Assembly (NCBI GenBank): GCA_016290135.1
Contig: JAEESW010000013.1
Span: 1 to 51,886 of the forward strand
Direction: 5' to 3'
Origin: a bacterium
Lineage (GTDB): Bacteria > UBP6 > UBA1177
DNA: 51,886 bases
The notes beneath the pieces are model-generated. The model was not told where the DNA came from, did not search any database, and saw nothing but the letters and a program-made list of their open reading frames with translations. A program made the translations under genes and the position numbers. Below, piece after piece: positions 4,278 to 18,787 of this stretch (within the stretch, counting starts at the first letter, position 1; each line of letters begins with the position of its first letter).

Positions 4278-5426
4278 ATGAGTAAGAGATCATTTTTTAC
4301 ACTTGTTTTGGCAATTTTTCTTGTTTTCGTGTTTATTGCCTGCGGAAGTGACAACAAAGAATCGGAAAAAACCGACACCGGTGACACGGAAACTGTTCCT
4401 GACACGGATCCGACTGACACCGGAGATGCAGAGGTGGCTCCTGATGAAGACAACACGGATACCGGAAACGTCACGCAGGAGGGATGCACGATAAAATCAT
4501 CTTTCGGAGCCCGTTCCGTAAAAAGAGATATTGCCGAAACCTGCATCAAAGAAATCGCCAAAGCCAAAGACGCAGAATGCAGCTGGAATCACAAACATGA
4601 AACAGTAACTGCCATTCATATCGAAGCCTTGCAAAAACTTAAAATCACTTTTGGCAAAGAATGCAAAGACAAAAATGGAGAAGAGACCGTTGAATGTCCC
4701 GGTTTTATTCCGGAAACTTTGAAATTGGGAAGTCTCACGGGATGTGATGTCTACAGCATTGATCCTCTTACAGACTGCATTGCTCCATGCGCGGATATCT
4801 ATTTTTCAACAGGCGACGACACTTTTCACACAGTCTATGTCGGTGGTGCTTATGGCAGAACTTTCATAAAATCATCGGATTCGATCAAGGAGGCATCGTT
4901 TTATTCCGAAATGAATACCGGCTCGAATAAAGCTGTTTTCACATGGTCAGAAAAGACTGAAGACGGCACTGAAACCGAGAAAGCGGTATCGGTAGAGATG
5001 AAAGTCGTTGATTCAGACGACTATACGGGTGAGGACTTTGAAGCGGTCGATGTCGGCGAGTGCCGTCACGAAGAACCGGCTTTTGCTTTGAGAGACAGGA
5101 TTTATACGGAAACTGACAGTTATTGGTGCAAAGAATATGTCGAAGTCACTGATAAAACAGAGACTTCCATCCGTTTCAACTGGTTCGGCGAGATGCACTG
5201 CGGTGCGGACTGGGAATACGGCTATAAAGTTGAAGGAATCGCTGAAAATGTTCTGAAAGTCCGCATTCTGGAGCGCGACACCGATAGTATTGCTGCTGAC
5301 TGCGACAACTGCTGCTATCTTATGCCGATAGAATACACCGCTTCAACTGCCGAAGAAATCGAATCAGTCAAAACAATCGAAATCAATTACGAAGGCAAAA
5401 ACCACAAAGCTTACTTCGAGATATAA
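4278..5426 (+). CDS. Lipoprotein with acidic Thr/Asp linker and a duplicated C-terminal domain
   Basis: A 382-residue predicted lipoprotein. A hydrophobic N-terminal segment ends in a lipobox (VFIAC, Cys about 22). A low-complexity linker rich in Asp, Thr, Glu and Pro follows to about residue 70, then a Cys-containing region with no recognised family. The last 130 residues (from FEAVDVGECRHEEPAF onward) are nearly the same as the mature part of the protein at 6452-6916, including CDNCCYLMPIEYTASTAEE. The linker probably holds the domains away from the membrane. Function is unknown; conserved paired cysteines suggest a disulfide-stabilised extracytoplasmic fold. The ATG has a good TTGGAGG site. 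Confidence 0.88.
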   Translation: MSKRSFFTLVLAIFLVFVFIACGSDNKESEKTDTGDTETVPDTDPTDTGDAEVAPDEDNTDTGNVTQEGCTIKSSFGARSVKRDIAETCIKEIAKAKDAECSWNHKHETVTAIHIEALQKLKITFGKECKDKNGEETVECPGFIPETLKLGSLTGCDVYSIDPLTDCIAPCADIYFSTGDDTFHTVYVGGAYGRTFIKSSDSIKEASFYSEMNTGSNKAVFTWSEKTEDGTETEKAVSVEMKVVDSDDYTGEDFEAVDVGECRHEEPAFALRDRIYTETDSYWCKEYVEVTDKTETSIRFNWFGEMHCGADWEYGYKVEGIAENVLKVRILERDTDSIAADCDNCCYLMPIEYTASTAEEIESVKTIEINYEGKNHKAYFEI

Positions 5427-5573: not shown

Positions 5574-6425
5574 ATGAAAAAGTTACTTGTTATTTTCGGA
5601 ATTTTTGCGGTTACAGCGACACTTTTTGCTGAAACTCTTGACTGTCAGTCAGAACTCGGAAGATGTATGTATGAACTTTTAGACGATTCATTCACGAAAG
5701 AGTGTTTCTGCCTCGACGGAATCGGAACCAGTGAAATGGAAACGCCTTCTGAAGACGGAACTTTTGATTTTACTCTGCCGACAAAAGAAGAGTGTCTGGC
5801 AGAAATTGAAAACATCTGCAAAAATGCAGGAACCAAATGTAAAAACGAATCAGGATCGTGCTCAGTAAAACGTAACGGTGACTACGAATGCTATTGCGAC
5901 TATGTTGACGGTAAAAAAACCGGAAACGGGTATTTCGGTCAGGAAGGATGCACTGCTGTTTTGGAGAAAGAATGCGGAACAGGACTCCCGACTCCAAGAA
6001 AAGTCTGCCAGGAAGAAATTCTCAATGAGTGTGCCTCCTATTTCAAAAGAATCAAGAGCAATTGTTCCAAAGAACCTGTCAACATTGAAGAAATTCTCGA
6101 TACTCCGATTGATGCTTTCGATTATTCGACAGAATCAGCTGTAACGGCGCATGAATTCGCGGATTGCTGCCGCTCCGAATATTGGAGAAACGAATATAAA
6201 AGGGAGTCAGACTGCATTGAAACCTTTGATTCATGTGAAGACCACGAGTGCTGCGAATGTACTATCCAAGTAGGCGGCGATGCTGCAAATACCGAAGCTC
6301 CGACCGGCGGCGCAACTAAAGAAGACACCGCTGACGGCGATTCAGCAACACCCACAACTGATAAAGTTCCTGCAGAAAACAAAGAAAATAGCAAATCCGA
6401 CGGCTGTTCGATGCTGTTTGTCTGA
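5574..6425 (+). CDS. Secreted Cys-rich protein with C-terminal GCSMLFV tail
   Basis: A 283-residue exported protein of unknown function. Residues 1-20 form a type I signal peptide with likely cleavage after LFA. The mature part holds about two dozen cysteines, suggesting many disulfides. Its first 130 residues are clearly homologous to the protein at 18260-18787 (ELGRCMYEL versus ELGKCSLTL; both have EECL/ETCM and GCxAVLxxECGT). After CCECTIQVGG comes a polar Ala/Thr/Asp/Lys linker and the ending KSDGCSMLFV. Two other exported proteins in the window share this Gly-Cys-Ser plus four-residue ending, which may be a sorting or anchoring signal. The start is ATG 5574 behind TTGGAG; an upstream in-frame TTG is part of that site. 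Confidence 0.85.
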   Translation: MKKLLVIFGIFAVTATLFAETLDCQSELGRCMYELLDDSFTKECFCLDGIGTSEMETPSEDGTFDFTLPTKEECLAEIENICKNAGTKCKNESGSCSVKRNGDYECYCDYVDGKKTGNGYFGQEGCTAVLEKECGTGLPTPRKVCQEEILNECASYFKRIKSNCSKEPVNIEEILDTPIDAFDYSTESAVTAHEFADCCRSEYWRNEYKRESDCIETFDSCEDHECCECTIQVGGDAANTEAPTGGATKEDTADGDSATPTTDKVPAENKENSKSDGCSMLFV

Positions 6426-6451: not shown

Positions 6452-6916
6452 ATGAGTAAGAAATCATTTTTTATCGTAATTTCAGCAGTTTTTATGTTTT
6501 TAGGTTGCGGAGGCAACGACGGTTTCACGGCAGTCGATGTCGGCGAGTGCCGTCACGAAGAACCGGCTTTTGCTTTCAAGGATAGAATCTATAATGAGAC
6601 TGAAAACTACTATTCTTGCAAAGAATATGTCGAAGTGATCGAAAAAACAGACACAACCATTAAATTCAACTGGTTTGCCGCGTTTCATTGTGATGATTGG
6701 GAATACGGCTACGAAATCGAGGGGATAGAGGAAAATATCCTTAAAGTCAGCATTAAAGAACGGGACCTCAGCGATTTGGCTACCGACTGCGACAACTGCT
6801 GTTATCTCATGCCGATAGAGTACACGGCTTCGACCGCAGAAGAGATCGACTCGCTCAAAGGGATCGAGATCAACTACGAAGGCAAAAACCACACTGCTTA
6901 CTTCGAAATAAAATAA
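6452..6916 (+). CDS. Small lipoprotein, single-domain paralogue of the protein at 4278
   Basis: A 154-residue lipoprotein with lipobox FLGC (Cys about 18). Only four residues separate it from a domain nearly identical to the last 130 residues of the protein at 4278-5426: shared stretches include VDVGECRHEEPAFA, CKEYVEV, DCDNCCYLMPIEYTASTAEE and INYEGKNH. It looks like a copy in which the linker and first domain were lost or never present. Function is unknown. AAGGAGG precedes the ATG and it follows the Cys-rich gene after 26 nt, so the two are probably cotranscribed. Confidence 0.85.
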   Translation: MSKKSFFIVISAVFMFLGCGGNDGFTAVDVGECRHEEPAFAFKDRIYNETENYYSCKEYVEVIEKTDTTIKFNWFAAFHCDDWEYGYEIEGIEENILKVSIKERDLSDLATDCDNCCYLMPIEYTASTAEEIDSLKGIEINYEGKNHTAYFEIK

Positions 6917-8426: not shown

Positions 8427-8454
8427 TTGACAAAAACTCTTCTTCCGCTAAACT
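8427..8454 (+). promoter_or_regulatory. Predicted promoter for the C25 protease gene
   Basis: TTGACA at 8427-8432, 16-nt spacer, TAAACT at 8449-8454, about 30 nt ahead of the start codon. It overlaps the possible upstream start codons of the divergent MATE gene. Confidence 0.65.
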
Positions 8455-8483
8455 ATTCTGCTTATGGTTTTACGGAGTTGATC

Positions 8484-10853
8484 ATGATAAAAAAGTATTT
8501 GATATTTTTCGCATCGTTCCTGTTTTTCACGCAAATTTCCGCCGACATCTTAGAGATCGATATTCCCGAAGCTCTCTTCACTGTCCGCGACGGATCCACT
8601 GTCCCGAAAATAGAAGGTTTTGACCTTGACGGAGCCGGAGGAGAGACTGTTCTTCCGTTCAAAAAGATGACTTTCGGAAGCGAAGTCGTCAAAGTCGAGA
8701 TCCTAAAGCAGCACAAAATAACGCTTGAAGCTCCTTTGAAAAAGGGCGAAGCTCTCTACAGGCTGAGCGATATGCGAAAAGTCGAAGCCGCGCCGTCAGC
8801 AAAGAGGCCGGTTCCTACCCTTTCAAAATTCGCATTTGACCGCAAGCCCTCTTTCAAACGGGAGAAAAAGGTGTTTTCGTTCGATCTTTACCCTGTCATC
8901 CCTGCCGGTGACAAAGAGGTCGTCAAGATAGACAGGATCCGCGTCACGACAAAAGAGAGATCTCTTCTTCCGATGGCTGATACAAAGGGCGGAAATTCGC
9001 TCCTTATCCTCACGACGAACTATTTCCTTGCTGAATCCAAGGAGATAGCAAATTTCGTCAAAGCCAAGAAAGAATCAGGGTTCAAGGTCGCCATCGCAAC
9101 CGAAAACGACTACGAAGGCGGAGAACTCAAAGGTATGGAGCGTGTCGAAAAGATCAGAAAATACCTGCGGAGCGTCTGCAAGGACTATGACTTTCTTCTC
9201 ATAATCGCCGGAACTAACCCGCGGGGCAGCGAAGTCCCGATGGTCGTTACGCGTCCTGACGAAGCGGATGATCCTGAATACGAGCTTGTTCCGACAGATA
9301 TTTTCTACGCCGAGATCTCCGAGGATATGGACAGCAACGGCAACGGTGTCTACGGAGAACGCGACGACTGGATAGAATACGAATTCGAACTCATCGTAGG
9401 CAGGATCCCGATATACGGAAACAATGTCAAAAATGCCGACGCGATCCTTGCCAGGACCGTCGATTTCATCAGGGAAAAGCCTTCGACAGCCGATTACAGG
9501 CGGAGAGTGCTCTTCCCGACGACGATCTCCTACTACGAGAATCAGGACGGCCAGTTCGGGATCCCGAAAATGGACGGCGCGTATGTAGCGGAATATCTTA
9601 TCAACAATTCACTGCGCCCACCCTTTTCATCGAAACTCCTCGTTGAAAAAGGAGGCATAGATCCGTCGGAATTCACCGAAGAAGACGCTCTGACATACGA
9701 CTCCATGCTTGAAAACATGAACACCGGACACGGCCTGGTCTTCTGGCAGGCTCACGGAATGCCCGAATATTCAGTCAGGACGCTCTGGCGGTCAGACAGA
9801 AACGGGAACGGCGTCGCAGACACATACAGCTACGAACTGACGAGCGAGACTTTCGTGGACACAACGCTTATCGACAAAGTAAAGGTCTTGAATCCTTTCG
9901 TGTTCCAGGGGAGCTGCCTCAACGGGACGATCGAGAGCGCGGGGAGCCTCGCATACTCTGTCCTCCGGAATACGGCTGTCGGGGTCGTCGGAGCGTCGCA
10001 GGTCTCTTACGGCACGATATTCAGCAACTACGACCTGAGTTCCCACGATATTTTTTCATACGGAGCAGTCTTTACCGACGCCCTCTTAAAAAACGAGATC
10101 CCTGCAAAAGTTTTCTTCGAGACCAAGGAACAGTGGCCAAACCGCAGCGTCCTGCTGACGATAAAGCTCGAAACGAACTATCTTGGAGACCCCTCTTTGA
10201 ACCTGAATGTCAAAGAGTGCGGGACCGATGCCGAATGTGACGACTCCCTTTTCTGCGACGGAAAGGAAATATGCGTGAGCGGTTTCTGCGAAAAGGCAGA
10301 AGGCTCGATACCGTGCATGGAGGGCGGGACGGAATGCGAGGAAAGCGTATGCGACGAAGCTGCAAAATCGTGTTCCTCAGTCCCGATGCCGGACGGTTCT
10401 TTCTGCGGGAATCCTGAGAACGCCTGCATCGGAGGAAGGCGCTGCATGAGCGGAAAATGCACCGATGTCGACTTGAAAGACTGTTCCGGATTGGATTCCG
10501 AATGTTCCGAAGGCGTCTGTGACCCTGAAAGCGGAGAATGCGTCAGAGCAGCCCTGAACGAAGGAAAGTCGTGCAGCAGCGGACTTTTATGCATCAAAAA
10601 CGAGATCTGCCACAACGGCTTCTGCGAGGGAGAGGAACCTGACATGCCCGAAGCCGGCGAGTGCCGCAAAGCGGAATGTTCCGAGACCGACGGTTTCATA
10701 AGCGTCTCCGACATATCGAAAAACTGGACTCCGTGCACTACCGAAGAGGGCAAGGAAGGCTACTGCGACTACGGAAGCTGCACTCCGAAAAAAATTCAGA
10801 AAAAAGATGCTTCGTCGTCTTCGTCGTCAGGCTGTTCGGTGACTGTTTTCTAA
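8484..10853 (+). CDS. C25 (gingipain-like) cysteine peptidase with Cys-rich region and GCSVTVF tail
   Basis: A 789-residue exported peptidase. Residues 1-20 form a type I signal peptide (cut near ISA-DI). An N-terminal propeptide-like region leads to the caspase-like C25 domain at about residues 165-570: LLILTTNYF, a His in WQAHGMPE (about 424) and the Cys in FQGSCLNG (about 478) fit the His/Cys dyad. From about 578 to 770 there is a Cys-rich region with repeating units such as CDDSLFCDGKEIC and CIKNEICHNGFC. The end is a Ser-rich linker and GCSVTVF, the same tail type as two other secreted proteins here. It lacks the type IX secretion domain usual in Bacteroidetes gingipains. GGAG precedes ATG 8484. 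Confidence 0.9.
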   Translation: MIKKYLIFFASFLFFTQISADILEIDIPEALFTVRDGSTVPKIEGFDLDGAGGETVLPFKKMTFGSEVVKVEILKQHKITLEAPLKKGEALYRLSDMRKVEAAPSAKRPVPTLSKFAFDRKPSFKREKKVFSFDLYPVIPAGDKEVVKIDRIRVTTKERSLLPMADTKGGNSLLILTTNYFLAESKEIANFVKAKKESGFKVAIATENDYEGGELKGMERVEKIRKYLRSVCKDYDFLLIIAGTNPRGSEVPMVVTRPDEADDPEYELVPTDIFYAEISEDMDSNGNGVYGERDDWIEYEFELIVGRIPIYGNNVKNADAILARTVDFIREKPSTADYRRRVLFPTTISYYENQDGQFGIPKMDGAYVAEYLINNSLRPPFSSKLLVEKGGIDPSEFTEEDALTYDSMLENMNTGHGLVFWQAHGMPEYSVRTLWRSDRNGNGVADTYSYELTSETFVDTTLIDKVKVLNPFVFQGSCLNGTIESAGSLAYSVLRNTAVGVVGASQVSYGTIFSNYDLSSHDIFSYGAVFTDALLKNEIPAKVFFETKEQWPNRSVLLTIKLETNYLGDPSLNLNVKECGTDAECDDSLFCDGKEICVSGFCEKAEGSIPCMEGGTECEESVCDEAAKSCSSVPMPDGSFCGNPENACIGGRRCMSGKCTDVDLKDCSGLDSECSEGVCDPESGECVRAALNEGKSCSSGLLCIKNEICHNGFCEGEEPDMPEAGECRKAECSETDGFISVSDISKNWTPCTTEEGKEGYCDYGSCTPKKIQKKDASSSSSSGCSVTVF

Positions 10854-10965: not shown

Positions 10966-12459
10966 TCATTTGTGTTCGTTGAGCGTCGTTGCGAAAGGAT
11001 GGAGCGACGAGTCGTCAAGGAGCGCCTCATACTGCGTTTCATTTTTAAGAGTCGAGTTGAAGAACGCTGCCATAAGTCCGCCCGTGTAGCTTATGAACTG
11101 CTGGTTGAGGGTGTTGTTGCCGCTTTTTGCACAAAGTGAGCAGTATGTTCCGCATTCGCTCTGGTCATCGACCATGTCGGCATGTCCTACACCTTTGGCA
11201 ATGATGTGGCGGCTCGGTGACGGATAGCTTGCATAGAAATGAACGCTGTTATCGCCTGCCGGAGCGCACGCCTGAACGCCGGAGGGACCTTTTTCCGTTC
11301 CCAGGAACATCGTGGGAAGTGTCGCAAGGTTGTTGAAGCACTCGTTGTTTTCATTCAAGTAGTTTCCACCGAGTATCTCGCATTTTTCCAAAGTGTCGAT
11401 CACGGCGTTCTTACAGCTCTTAATTAATAATCCCGACCATGTTCCGCCTAACTCTTCACACTGACTTTCCGTAGAGATCGCTTCCGTTGTGAGCTGGATT
11501 ATGCTGTTCGGGTCAGAAGCGCCTCCCAACGGCGGAGCCGAATCGACAGGGTCTACGCCGAAAAAGCTTTTTGCGATAGTCGTGTCAGCATTTACAAGCC
11601 TGTTCGTGACTTTTCCGCCGCGGCTGTGGCCTGAAACGCCCAGATTGTCAAAATCGGGAGTCGCCGCAGTGTAGGAGGAAAGATGCTCCTTGAGCCAGTT
11701 GATAAAGGTGATTACTTTCTGGTATTCAGCTATCGTTGTGTCTCCGCCGGACAGTGAGTGCTTCGACTGGCTCGAAACTACGATGAAGCCGTGGGAGGCA
11801 AGGTGAGTCATAATACCATCATAATATCCGATCTTGTACATGAATCCGTGCAGGAAGTGGATAACAGGAAGGTTCCCCGAAACATCTTTCGGCTCGTATA
11901 TCCTGAACTCTCTCGGCGCTCCGTCTGTGCCGGATGCGATATCTGTCGTTTTGACTTCGTAAGGTCCTGAGTTGAAAATATCGACCAGATCTTCGGGATT
12001 CGTTGGATCCGTGGTCGGATCGGTCGGATCAGTCGGGTCTGTCGTAGGATCTGTCGGGTTTGTCGGGTCCGTGGTCGGATCAGTCGGATTCGTCGGATCA
12101 GTGGTCGGATCAGTCGGGTTCGTCGGGTCTGTCGTCGGATCAGTGGTCGGATCGGTCGGATTCGTCGGATCCGTGGTAGGATCGGTCGGGTCTGTCGGGT
12201 CCGTGGTCGGATCGGTCGTCGGGTCTGTGGTCGGATCAGTCGGATCAGTCGGGTCTGTGGTCGGATCAGTCGGGTTTGTCGGGTCGGTCGTTGGATCAGT
12301 CGTCGGTTCGCCCGTCGGATCGCCCGAATCAGGCTGATCCGTAACGTCTGTATCAATTGAATCTGTGTCGATTCCATCGATCAGATCTGAAACATTTTTG
12401 CCGTCGCAGCTTACAAAAAGGAAAATCAAAACGGGAATGAGAAAAAGGAAATTTTTCAT
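10966..12459 (-). CDS. Lipoprotein with Thr-Asp-Pro repeat linker and chlorophyllase-like alpha/beta hydrolase
   Basis: A 497-residue lipoprotein. The signal segment ends in FLFVSC with Asp at +2; in E. coli that residue favours inner-membrane retention, but the rule may not hold here. About 110 residues of repeated TDP/TNPTDPTTDP units form an extended linker. The C-terminal 340 residues are an alpha/beta hydrolase: VIHFLHGF (oxyanion region), nucleophile elbow GHSRGG (Ser about 279), acid in FGVDPVDSAPP, and His in GVGHADMVD. GHSRGG with the following DPV motif is typical of chlorophyllase-type and related esterases. Substrate is unknown; an ester in the periplasm or outside the cell is likely. 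Paralogous to the gene upstream at 12510-13802. Confidence 0.88.
   Translation of the reverse strand: MKNFLFLIPVLIFLFVSCDGKNVSDLIDGIDTDSIDTDVTDQPDSGDPTGEPTTDPTTDPTNPTDPTTDPTDPTDPTTDPTTDPTTDPTDPTDPTTDPTNPTDPTTDPTTDPTNPTDPTTDPTNPTDPTTDPTNPTDPTTDPTDPTDPTTDPTNPEDLVDIFNSGPYEVKTTDIASGTDGAPREFRIYEPKDVSGNLPVIHFLHGFMYKIGYYDGIMTHLASHGFIVVSSQSKHSLSGGDTTIAEYQKVITFINWLKEHLSSYTAATPDFDNLGVSGHSRGGKVTNRLVNADTTIAKSFFGVDPVDSAPPLGGASDPNSIIQLTTEAISTESQCEELGGTWSGLLIKSCKNAVIDTLEKCEILGGNYLNENNECFNNLATLPTMFLGTEKGPSGVQACAPAGDNSVHFYASYPSPSRHIIAKGVGHADMVDDQSECGTYCSLCAKSGNNTLNQQFISYTGGLMAAFFNSTLKNETQYEALLDDSSLHPFATTLNEHK
11998..12321. repeat. DNA repeat array encoding the Thr-Asp-Pro linker
   Basis: On the plus strand, short units such as GGATCAGTCGG and GGTCTGTCGT recur with small variations in multiples of three bases for over 300 bp. 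The array keeps the reading frame of the minus-strand lipoprotein, so slipped-strand changes would alter linker length without breaking the gene. A shorter array of the same kind lies at about 13396-13490 in the neighbouring paralogue. Confidence 0.85.
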
Positions 12460-12509
12460 TTTTTGACCTCACAAATTACGAATTTGAAAAAACAGCGGTC
12501 TGGATCCGC

Positions 12510-13802
12510 CTATTTGTGTTCCGTTACAGTTGTTGCAAAAGGATGTGTCGAAGAGTCGTTGAGAAGAGCTTCATACTCGGTCATTCCTTTCAAAGTCGAG
12601 TTGAAGAAAGCCGCCATAAGCCCTGCCGTATATGCGATAAACTGCTGGTTAAGCCCGGTGTTGCCGCTGCCTACACATGCAGAGCACTGCATACCGCACG
12701 CTGAGATGTCGGCAGGATCGACCATGTCTGCATGGCCTACGCCTGCTGCGATTATGTGGTGACTTACTGACGGATATCCCGCATAGAAACTTGCGCTGTT
12801 GTCGCCTGCCGGAGCGCATGCCTGCCCCATTTTCTTCTCAGTCCCCTTTTCTGTTCCGACAAACATTGATTCGCCTGTAAACTGGACCGGATCTTTGAGA
12901 CTTTGCGGGTCTGAACCGCCGCCCATAGGCGGAGCAGAATCGACAGGGTCAACGCCGAAGAAACTCGTAGCCATCGTCGGATCGTTGTTAAGAACTCTGT
13001 TCGTGACTTTTCCGCCGCGGCTGTGGCCTGCAACACCGAAGTGCTCTACATCGGCCGTGACTGAAACTTTGGACTGAATGTTCTCTTTGAGCCAGGTGAG
13101 GAATGTCGCGACTTTTTCAGCTTCTACGATAGTTGTGTCACCGCCCATCAGGCTGTGGGACGACTGACTCGAAACTACGATGAATCCGTGGGAAGCGAGC
13201 TGAGTGAGCATGTCATCGTAGTAAGTCAATTTGTAGGTAAATCCGTGCAGGAAGTGAATGACCGGAATGTTTCCTTCCGCTCCTGCCGGCTCGTAAATTT
13301 TGAACTCTCTCGGTGCGCCGTCGGTGCCCGATTTTACGTCCGTTGTATTGACCCCGTAAGGCCCCATTTCGAAGACAGCGTTACCGTCTGCAGGACCTGT
13401 CGTAGGATCGGTGGTCGGGTCAGTCGGATTCGTCGGGTCGGTCGTCGGATCGGTCGGATCCGTCGGATTTGTAGGATCGGTCTGATTTCCCTGGCAGGTA
13501 GTCTCATCCCAGCCTGTGCAGTCAGCCTTGCAGTAAGCGTATCCGCCGGTGTAGCCCGGATTGATCGAGCTGCATTCCTGCGCTCCGCCGTCGCATGTTT
13601 CGCCTTCGTCAACGATCCTGTTTCCGCAGTCTCCTGCAGCAGTGTCCGTCGGCTCGGTGTTTGTGTCTGTGTCTGTGTCGGGATCAACGACTTCAGTGTC
13701 GGGATCGTCCGGTGTTACCGGTTTTTTCTCTGAACCGCCGCAGCTTGCACAAAAAAGAAAAGCCAGCAGCAGAATTGAGAAAATCGAAAGTGCTTTTTTC
13801 AT
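12510..13802 (-). CDS. Lipoprotein with Cys-rich module, Thr-Asp-Pro linker and chlorophyllase-like hydrolase
   Basis: A 430-residue lipoprotein with lipobox FCASC (Cys about 21). After an Asp/Thr-rich stretch comes a small Cys-rich module (CGNRIVDEGETCDGG...) like the DUF4215-type repeats common in deltaproteobacterial and Myxococcota surface proteins, then a short TDP/TNP linker. The hydrolase domain closely matches that of the gene at 10966-12459: VIHFLHGFTYK, GHSRGGK (Ser about 262), FGVDPVDSAPPMGG and GVGHADMVD. It lies 50 nt upstream of its paralogue on the same strand, so both are probably one transcript and a tandem duplication. The ATG has GGAGG before it. The ester substrate is unknown. 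Confidence 0.88.
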   Translation of the reverse strand: MKKALSIFSILLLAFLFCASCGGSEKKPVTPDDPDTEVVDPDTDTDTNTEPTDTAAGDCGNRIVDEGETCDGGAQECSSINPGYTGGYAYCKADCTGWDETTCQGNQTDPTNPTDPTDPTTDPTNPTDPTTDPTTGPADGNAVFEMGPYGVNTTDVKSGTDGAPREFKIYEPAGAEGNIPVIHFLHGFTYKLTYYDDMLTQLASHGFIVVSSQSSHSLMGGDTTIVEAEKVATFLTWLKENIQSKVSVTADVEHFGVAGHSRGGKVTNRVLNNDPTMATSFFGVDPVDSAPPMGGGSDPQSLKDPVQFTGESMFVGTEKGTEKKMGQACAPAGDNSASFYAGYPSVSHHIIAAGVGHADMVDPADISACGMQCSACVGSGNTGLNQQFIAYTAGLMAAFFNSTLKGMTEYEALLNDSSTHPFATTVTEHK

Positions 13803-18259: not shown

Positions 18260-18787
18260 ATGAAAAAGACAGTTGTTTTAGCTGCCGTCTTTGCTGTTGC
18301 AACGGTTCTTTTTGCGGAAGAGAAAAGTGTTTCGTGTGAATCGGAACTCGGAAAGTGCTCTCTTACGCTGACTGACGGATCGATCCGTTCGGAGTGTGAA
18401 TGCCGGGACGGCGAAGGATATGTTTCTGATGAAAATGTCCAGCCTGAAACGACCTCTCTGAGCAACGAAACATGCATGGAGAAGATCGAAAAGCTCTGCA
18501 AAGATACGCGGATCCGTTGCCGGAATGAGGCAGGCAAGTGTACAGTAGCATACGGCGGCAACTATGCCTGCAGGTGTTACGGAGTCGGAGATTTAAAGAC
18601 CGGAAGCGGCACTTTCAGCGAAAACGGATGCGGCGCGGTTCTGGTGGAAGAGTGCGGAACCGAACCTGTCGAAGGCTGGGAAACCGACGACTCCGATTAT
18701 CCGGAGGTCGATGCAGCTGACGACAACACTTCCGACGGCGCTGGGGATGAAGGCAAATCCGGCGGATGTTCGATGCTTTTCATCTGA
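18260..18787 (+). CDS. Secreted Cys-rich protein with C-terminal GCSMLFI tail
   Basis: A 175-residue exported protein with a type I signal peptide (cut after LFA, about residue 20). Its mature core is Cys-rich and homologous to the protein at 5574-6425: both start with a Cys and a SELGxC motif, then share a CMEKIEKLC/CLAEIENIC helix, a GKC/GSC turn, and NGCGAVLVEECGT. After an acidic Asp/Glu linker it ends GKSGGCSMLFI. Function is unknown. AGGAGG precedes the ATG. It sits just past rnfA, inside the block bounded by the two rnfA 3' ends, and need not belong to the Rnf system. Confidence 0.85.
   Translation: MKKTVVLAAVFAVATVLFAEEKSVSCESELGKCSLTLTDGSIRSECECRDGEGYVSDENVQPETTSLSNETCMEKIEKLCKDTRIRCRNEAGKCTVAYGGNYACRCYGVGDLKTGSGTFSENGCGAVLVEECGTEPVEGWETDDSDYPEVDAADDNTSDGAGDEGKSGGCSMLFI

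Follow-up and report, generated by a model that had tools for sequence, protein, structure and literature searches.

A short C-terminal cysteine tail on a C25-type protease and other exported proteins of a UBP6 bacterium as a possible sorting tag of MYXO-CTERM type

The C25-type protease described here ends in a short tail, GCS followed by four residues, and similar ends recur on unrelated exported proteins of the same genome and of related genomes. Judged by sequence, this tail is a putative genome-wide and phylum-wide tag that goes beyond plain homology. We consider it probable, with room for doubt, that the GCS tail serves as a C-terminal sorting or anchoring tag, that is, as the signature end of a MYXO-CTERM-type signal without its transmembrane helix and basic end. 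This reading is drawn from the presence of the tag on unrelated exported proteins, its conservation among orthologues, the exchange of long and short tails, and the near-constant occurrence of a single myxosortase-like protease. The window, meaning the whole stretch of 51,886 nucleotides that was analysed, is contig C23 of a 2.47-Mb genome that is 98% complete. The comparison set comprised 28 genomes, all of which we infer to belong to phylum UBP6, in families f1 to f4 (25 in f1 to f3 and 3 in f4), together with 14 control genomes.

An open reading frame at 8427..10853 on the plus strand was confirmed for the protease, with the ATG at 8484 as its likely start (Table 1). In a Pfam search, PF01364 covered residues 174 to 574 (E 9.1e-24; 84.8 bits against a cut-off of 23), which places the protein in Peptidase C25, and neither a second Pfam family nor any NCBIfam family was found on it at E <= 0.1. 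Residues H424 (QAHGMP) and C478 (QGSCLNG), which by their motif are the likely His/Cys catalytic dyad, are invariant across 8 aligned protease sequences, as are most cysteines of the C579-C766 region in 7 relatives. The protein terminates in SSSSSSGCSVTVF and a stop codon, its last residues being SSSGCSVTVF. SSSSGCS is invariant in the 8-row alignment, and the C terminus reads SSSGCS plus four residues in 8/8 relatives; in the eighth the frame is broken upstream, yet the same tail stands at its end. These relatives come from 8 genomes, several of them from ruminant gut, and were retrieved with patterns located upstream of the tail, which was not part of the selection. Pfam and the alignment together confirmed the anatomy given in the original prediction, namely a C25 part, a Cys-rich region of about 190 residues, and a GCS tail, with no type IX sorting domain. 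Modelling the protease with AlphaFold on the basis of 8 orthologues gave a useless structure (mean pLDDT, 36.5), and sequence searches of solved structures with the protease and the myxosortase (Mrt) relative described below returned no matches. Peptidase C25 is present in 28/28 genomes, and contig C30 of this genome (L001, L003) encodes two more C25 proteins, of 605 and 829 aa in open frame, that have no Cys tail.

Table 1. Positions in the window of the protease gene, its parts, and the short tails
Feature	Position	Strand	Size	Basis or detail
Short tail GCSMLFV and stop codon of an exported Cys-rich protein starting at ~5574	6402..6425	+		Tail pattern
C25-type protease gene with C-terminal Cys tag	8484..10853	+	789 aa	
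Signal peptide of the protease	8484..8543	+		By eye: MIKKYLIFFASFLFFTQISA, then D; no lipobox; plain signal peptide by heuristic
Peptidase_C25 catalytic domain	9003..10205	+		PF01364
Cys-rich region, C579-C766	10218..10781	+	188 residues	Alignment of relatives
Short tail GCSVTVF and stop codon of the protease	10830..10853	+		Tail pattern, alignment
Short tail GCSMLFI and stop codon of an exported 175-aa protein starting at 18260	18764..18787	+		Tail pattern

Tails were counted with a 24-base pattern (GGNTGYWSNNTNNYNNTNNTNTRR), and the reversed pattern was used as the control. The strict pattern matched 21 times in this genome against 0 for the control, and three of the matches lie in the window (at 6402, 10830, and 18764). 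Of the 21 matches, 15 terminate full-length proteins, 1 terminates a protein truncated at a contig boundary, and 5 are orphan tails. According to our heuristic calls, every full-length carrier (15/15) begins with a plain signal peptide and none (0/15) with a lipobox. Among the carriers are six subtilases, a metallophosphatase, an amidase with a golvesin domain, a DUF7151/collagen-like protein, a HYDIN/VesB-like Ig protein, and the C25 protease. Variant ends (GCSTMVM, GCALVTI, GCSISVIGGE, GCSLDLI, GCALLTVD, and GCSLLFVD) were found on 6 more proteins in the stretches examined for them, which amount to ~27% of the genome, overlaps included. Part of what would have refuted the original prediction was a lack of similar tails on other proteins; they are found on many other exported proteins. 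It had noticed the GCS end, and it overlooked both the nature of this end as a tag across genome and phylum and the tie to MYXO-CTERM.

Within the examined stretches of this genome, the tail occurred on 18/103 plain signal-peptide proteins, 1/54 lipobox proteins, and 3/406 other proteins, figures that are not genome frequencies because the regions were partly picked for their tails. The one lipobox carrier is a chance match, and of the three others, one is a protein that truly bears the tag and begins beyond the examined stretch. In an unbiased 324-kb sample, the strict test gave 1/44, 1/28, and 1/197 for the same three classes, with no tail enrichment; three true tags were recognized in that sample by eye. 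A chance or frameshift origin of the tails was ruled out by the reversed-pattern control and by reading three frames after four stops.

The five orphan tails lie at 452 and 2225 in L065 (C13), at 1594 and 2379 in L066 (C21), and at 3711 in L067 (C40). They span ~33 bases, read AAATCCGACGGCTG..TCTAA or TCTGA in 4/5 cases, and stand a few dozen bases downstream of the stop codons of unrelated genes, two of them in frame with the preceding gene. They may represent recombination remnants, cassettes, or readthrough. Within the window, the short-tailed gene at 5574-6425 has on either side a lipoprotein-like gene (4278-5426 and 6452-6916, plus strand), and these two have a C-terminal domain in common (VDVGECRHEEPAFA...). 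The minus strand at 10966-13802 holds two tandem chlorophyllase/PETase-like hydrolases, in which a lipoprotein-like start is followed by long PTDPTDPT-type linkers.

Summed over the 25 genomes of families f1 to f3, the tail pattern gave 293 matches against 9 for the control, and in the 3 genomes of f4 it gave 3 against 5. All retrieved loci together yielded 99 signal-peptide proteins with a Cys near the end. The tail filter retained 59 of these, which BLASTP sorted into 17 groups, and two groups were judged not to be real tags; since the filter requires the motif, the result here is the number of unrelated groups and not the motif itself. Five residues follow the Cys as a rule, and 4 to 6 in most variants. 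The tag has a single, exposed Cys, which terminates a flexible linker of Ser or acidic residues. Of 8 tail pieces searched against NCBIfam, just one gave matches at E <= 10, and these were low-complexity matches.

The tie to MYXO-CTERM comes from proteins with longer ends. The MYXO-CTERM model TIGR03901 scored above its cut-off in 5/28 genomes and more weakly in others, this genome included, and 6/14 control genomes also matched below the cut-off. Most of the matched proteins measure ~1040 aa; at their C terminus a Cys is followed by a helix and then by Arg or Lys. They represent an exported paralogue family that is present in 25/28 genomes and absent from f4. Among 50 loci of this family that were read, 41 have long tails, 5 have short tails, and 4 have neither (two are tail-less, one is cut by a contig end, and one was read in the wrong frame). 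In G006, L218 ends in the short tail CCCGCSLVF and a stop codon, with no helix after the stop in any of three frames. Its identity to L204:11422-14619, a protein with the long tail CDCSMIAGSADIDLSLAVLLLSAMAFIFARRPRRES, is 59.5% over 1013 aa. This genome has five long-tailed members and one short-tailed member (C53). From the L218/L204 pair and the 50 loci, we conclude that the two kinds of tail replace each other at one and the same cysteine. The L204 region (G006 C45:80001-100000) holds four ~1040-aa exported paralogues in tandem, each with a full MYXO-CTERM-like tail.

The system described here resembles MYXO-CTERM and its myxosortases MrtX, MrtC, and MrtP in Myxococcota in several ways. The C terminus shows a signature with an invariant Cys (GCS or GCGCS) behind a flexible linker, the N terminus has a signal peptide, hydrolases and adhesins are among the carriers, and the genome encodes a type II secretin as well as a CPBP protease similar to the myxosortases. 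The present system differs in having no transmembrane helix and no basic, Arg-rich end; 4 to 6 residues follow the Cys (four after GCS in the protease), a helix is seen in the long-tailed ~1040-aa members, the short form is missed by TIGR03901, and the protease scores below the myxosortase cut-offs. Because two defining features, the helix and the basic end, are missing, we do not file the tag as a member of MYXO-CTERM, and it most likely works like one. According to PMC11980579, MrtX cleaves the MYXO-CTERM of TraA, for which the Cys is needed; Lgt-like lipidation and type II export are proposed for MYXO-CTERM proteins; and the signals handled by sortase, archaeosortase, rhombosortase, and myxosortase have a tripartite form that includes a membrane helix. 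No helix-less form was found in the literature on the tail, UBP6, and truncated MYXO-CTERM, as covered without the in silico myxosortase study (reference 16 of PMC11980579).

A candidate processing enzyme is the only PF02517 (CPBP/Rce1-type) protein of this genome, on contig C22. Its nearest NCBIfam models are MrtP, MrtC, and Mrt_core, at 78 to 84 bits and under every cut-off; against the myxosortase core NF040914 it reaches 78 bits where the cut-off is 100, and that core is above cut-off in 1/28 genomes (G001). Mrt_core matches occur in 27/28 genomes, as a single match in 26, and the sole miss, G005, is a genome that is 65% complete. The control genomes showed an Mrt_core match in 8/14, none above cut-off, so Mrt_core is not specific at this score level. 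The myxosortase catalytic residues EExxxR, H, and HxxxN are kept in this genome's Mrt relative and in each of the 11 alignment rows displayed out of 28, the 28 having been selected by that motif. In G008, the genes for mrt, an FKBP, a 634-aa protein ending in CACSVVW, and a 509-aa protein ending in GCGCSVVW follow one another on one strand with gaps of <= ~110 bases, and in G009 and G007 the order is mrt, FKBP, another gene, and a short-tailed protein. The cluster is absent in G006 and in this genome, and it may reflect a single event, since G007, G008, and G009 are close relatives.

Homologues of Lgt are candidates for a C-terminal acyltransferase. They occur at 6 match places in this genome and at 3 to 7 in others, some of which are pieces of one gene. 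Of the six here (C65, C26, C38, C41, C36, and C52), one appears canonical, and the other five have diverged and show a motif of GCC/GCCFG type. The paralogue on C52 lies two genes from a tagged gene, and this neighbourhood was not counted as evidence, given that ~0.6 such neighbours are reckoned by chance.

The type II secretin GspD is above cut-off in 25/28 genomes, this genome included. C25 proteases are classic type IX cargo, and gingipains of Porphyromonas, which use type IX secretion, have the C25 catalytic domain in common with our protease; here, however, a Cys-rich region and a Cys tag are found in place of the type IX C-terminal domain. For that domain we searched with Por_Secre_tail (PF18962), which is absent from the protease and from the whole genome. 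SprA was found in 0/28 genomes, and because the control genomes also gave no match, this count does not prove that type IX secretion is absent, although its absence is likely. That the display route differs from the one used by the gingipains of Porphyromonas, as originally proposed, is well supported by the missing sorting domain, the similar tails on many other exported proteins, the type II secretin, and the myxosortase-type protease. Display at the surface itself is predicted, and taken as a whole the original proposal is partly supported. The alternative that type IX secretion carries the protease by means of a sorting domain that has diverged was set aside as a leading explanation and seems exceedingly improbable; the SprA search without a positive control leaves it some room, and against it stand the results for PF18962 and SprA and the same tail on subtilases, an amidase, and a phosphoesterase.

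If the GCS tail is a sorting tag, Sec would export the protein, and an Lgt-type enzyme would then lipidate its C-terminal Cys. The myxosortase relative would trim away everything behind the Cys, four to six residues, much as Rce1 acts on the CAAX box, and the type II system would take the folded protein over the outer membrane. The C25 protease would end on the cell surface with the C-terminal lipid as its hold. In a CAAX box three residues follow the Cys, and a prenyltransferase is involved. Common to that box and the tail are a C-terminal Cys, the few mostly aliphatic residues after it, and a protease of the same CPBP superfamily. In contrast to the exactly three residues and the cytosolic proteins of the CAAX box, the tail is found on exported proteins and mostly has 5 residues after the Cys, and no prenyltransferase is implied. 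We put forward, as a tentative proposal that has somewhat less than an even chance of being right, that the tail is an extracytoplasmic CAAX-like box, in which a C-terminal Cys is followed by 4 to 6 mainly hydrophobic residues and no helix; once exported, it would be lipidated by a member of the expanded Lgt-like set and trimmed by an Rce1-family protease.

Several observations speak against the sorting tag. The Mrt relative is under every myxosortase cut-off, and controls also show Mrt_core matches; the long-tailed proteins of the same genomes could be the sole Mrt substrates; a helix that could take the short tail to the membrane is missing; f4 has Mrt, but its short tails are not above control; and the mrt cluster, seen in close relatives, may go back to a single event. 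Another explanation is that the short tail marks release, with the carriers being ordinary soluble type II substrates and GCS a remnant or a lipid-free secretion cue. The short tails do lack any helix, a type II secretin is present, and TraA lacking its MYXO-CTERM is released through type II secretion, as stated in PMC11980579. A remnant would decay, however, yet GCS is invariant in the 8 protease orthologues and recurs on unrelated proteins, and the want of an N-terminal lipobox in all 15 carriers is what an anchoring tag would lead one to expect. We regard release as unlikely. The single exposed Cys after a flexible linker, and the many Cys-rich exported proteins in the genome, would also suit a disulfide or thioether bond that ties the protein to a matrix or an envelope partner, the hydrophobic end then serving as a docking motif. 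Such a link strikes us as quite improbable; the exchange with MYXO-CTERM-like tails at the same position points instead to the MYXO-CTERM path.

If true, a CAAX-like box outside the cytoplasm would join MYXO-CTERM sorting to CAAX processing, and the helix would be dispensable. A helix-less form on ~20 or more proteins of one genome, and in most of an uncultured phylum, would widen the tripartite rule. Because standard models miss the tag, tagged proteins would be annotated as plain secreted; the tag would give a simple sequence handle on surface proteins of these gut bacteria, and the search for the myxosortase acyltransferase would gain a minimal substrate.
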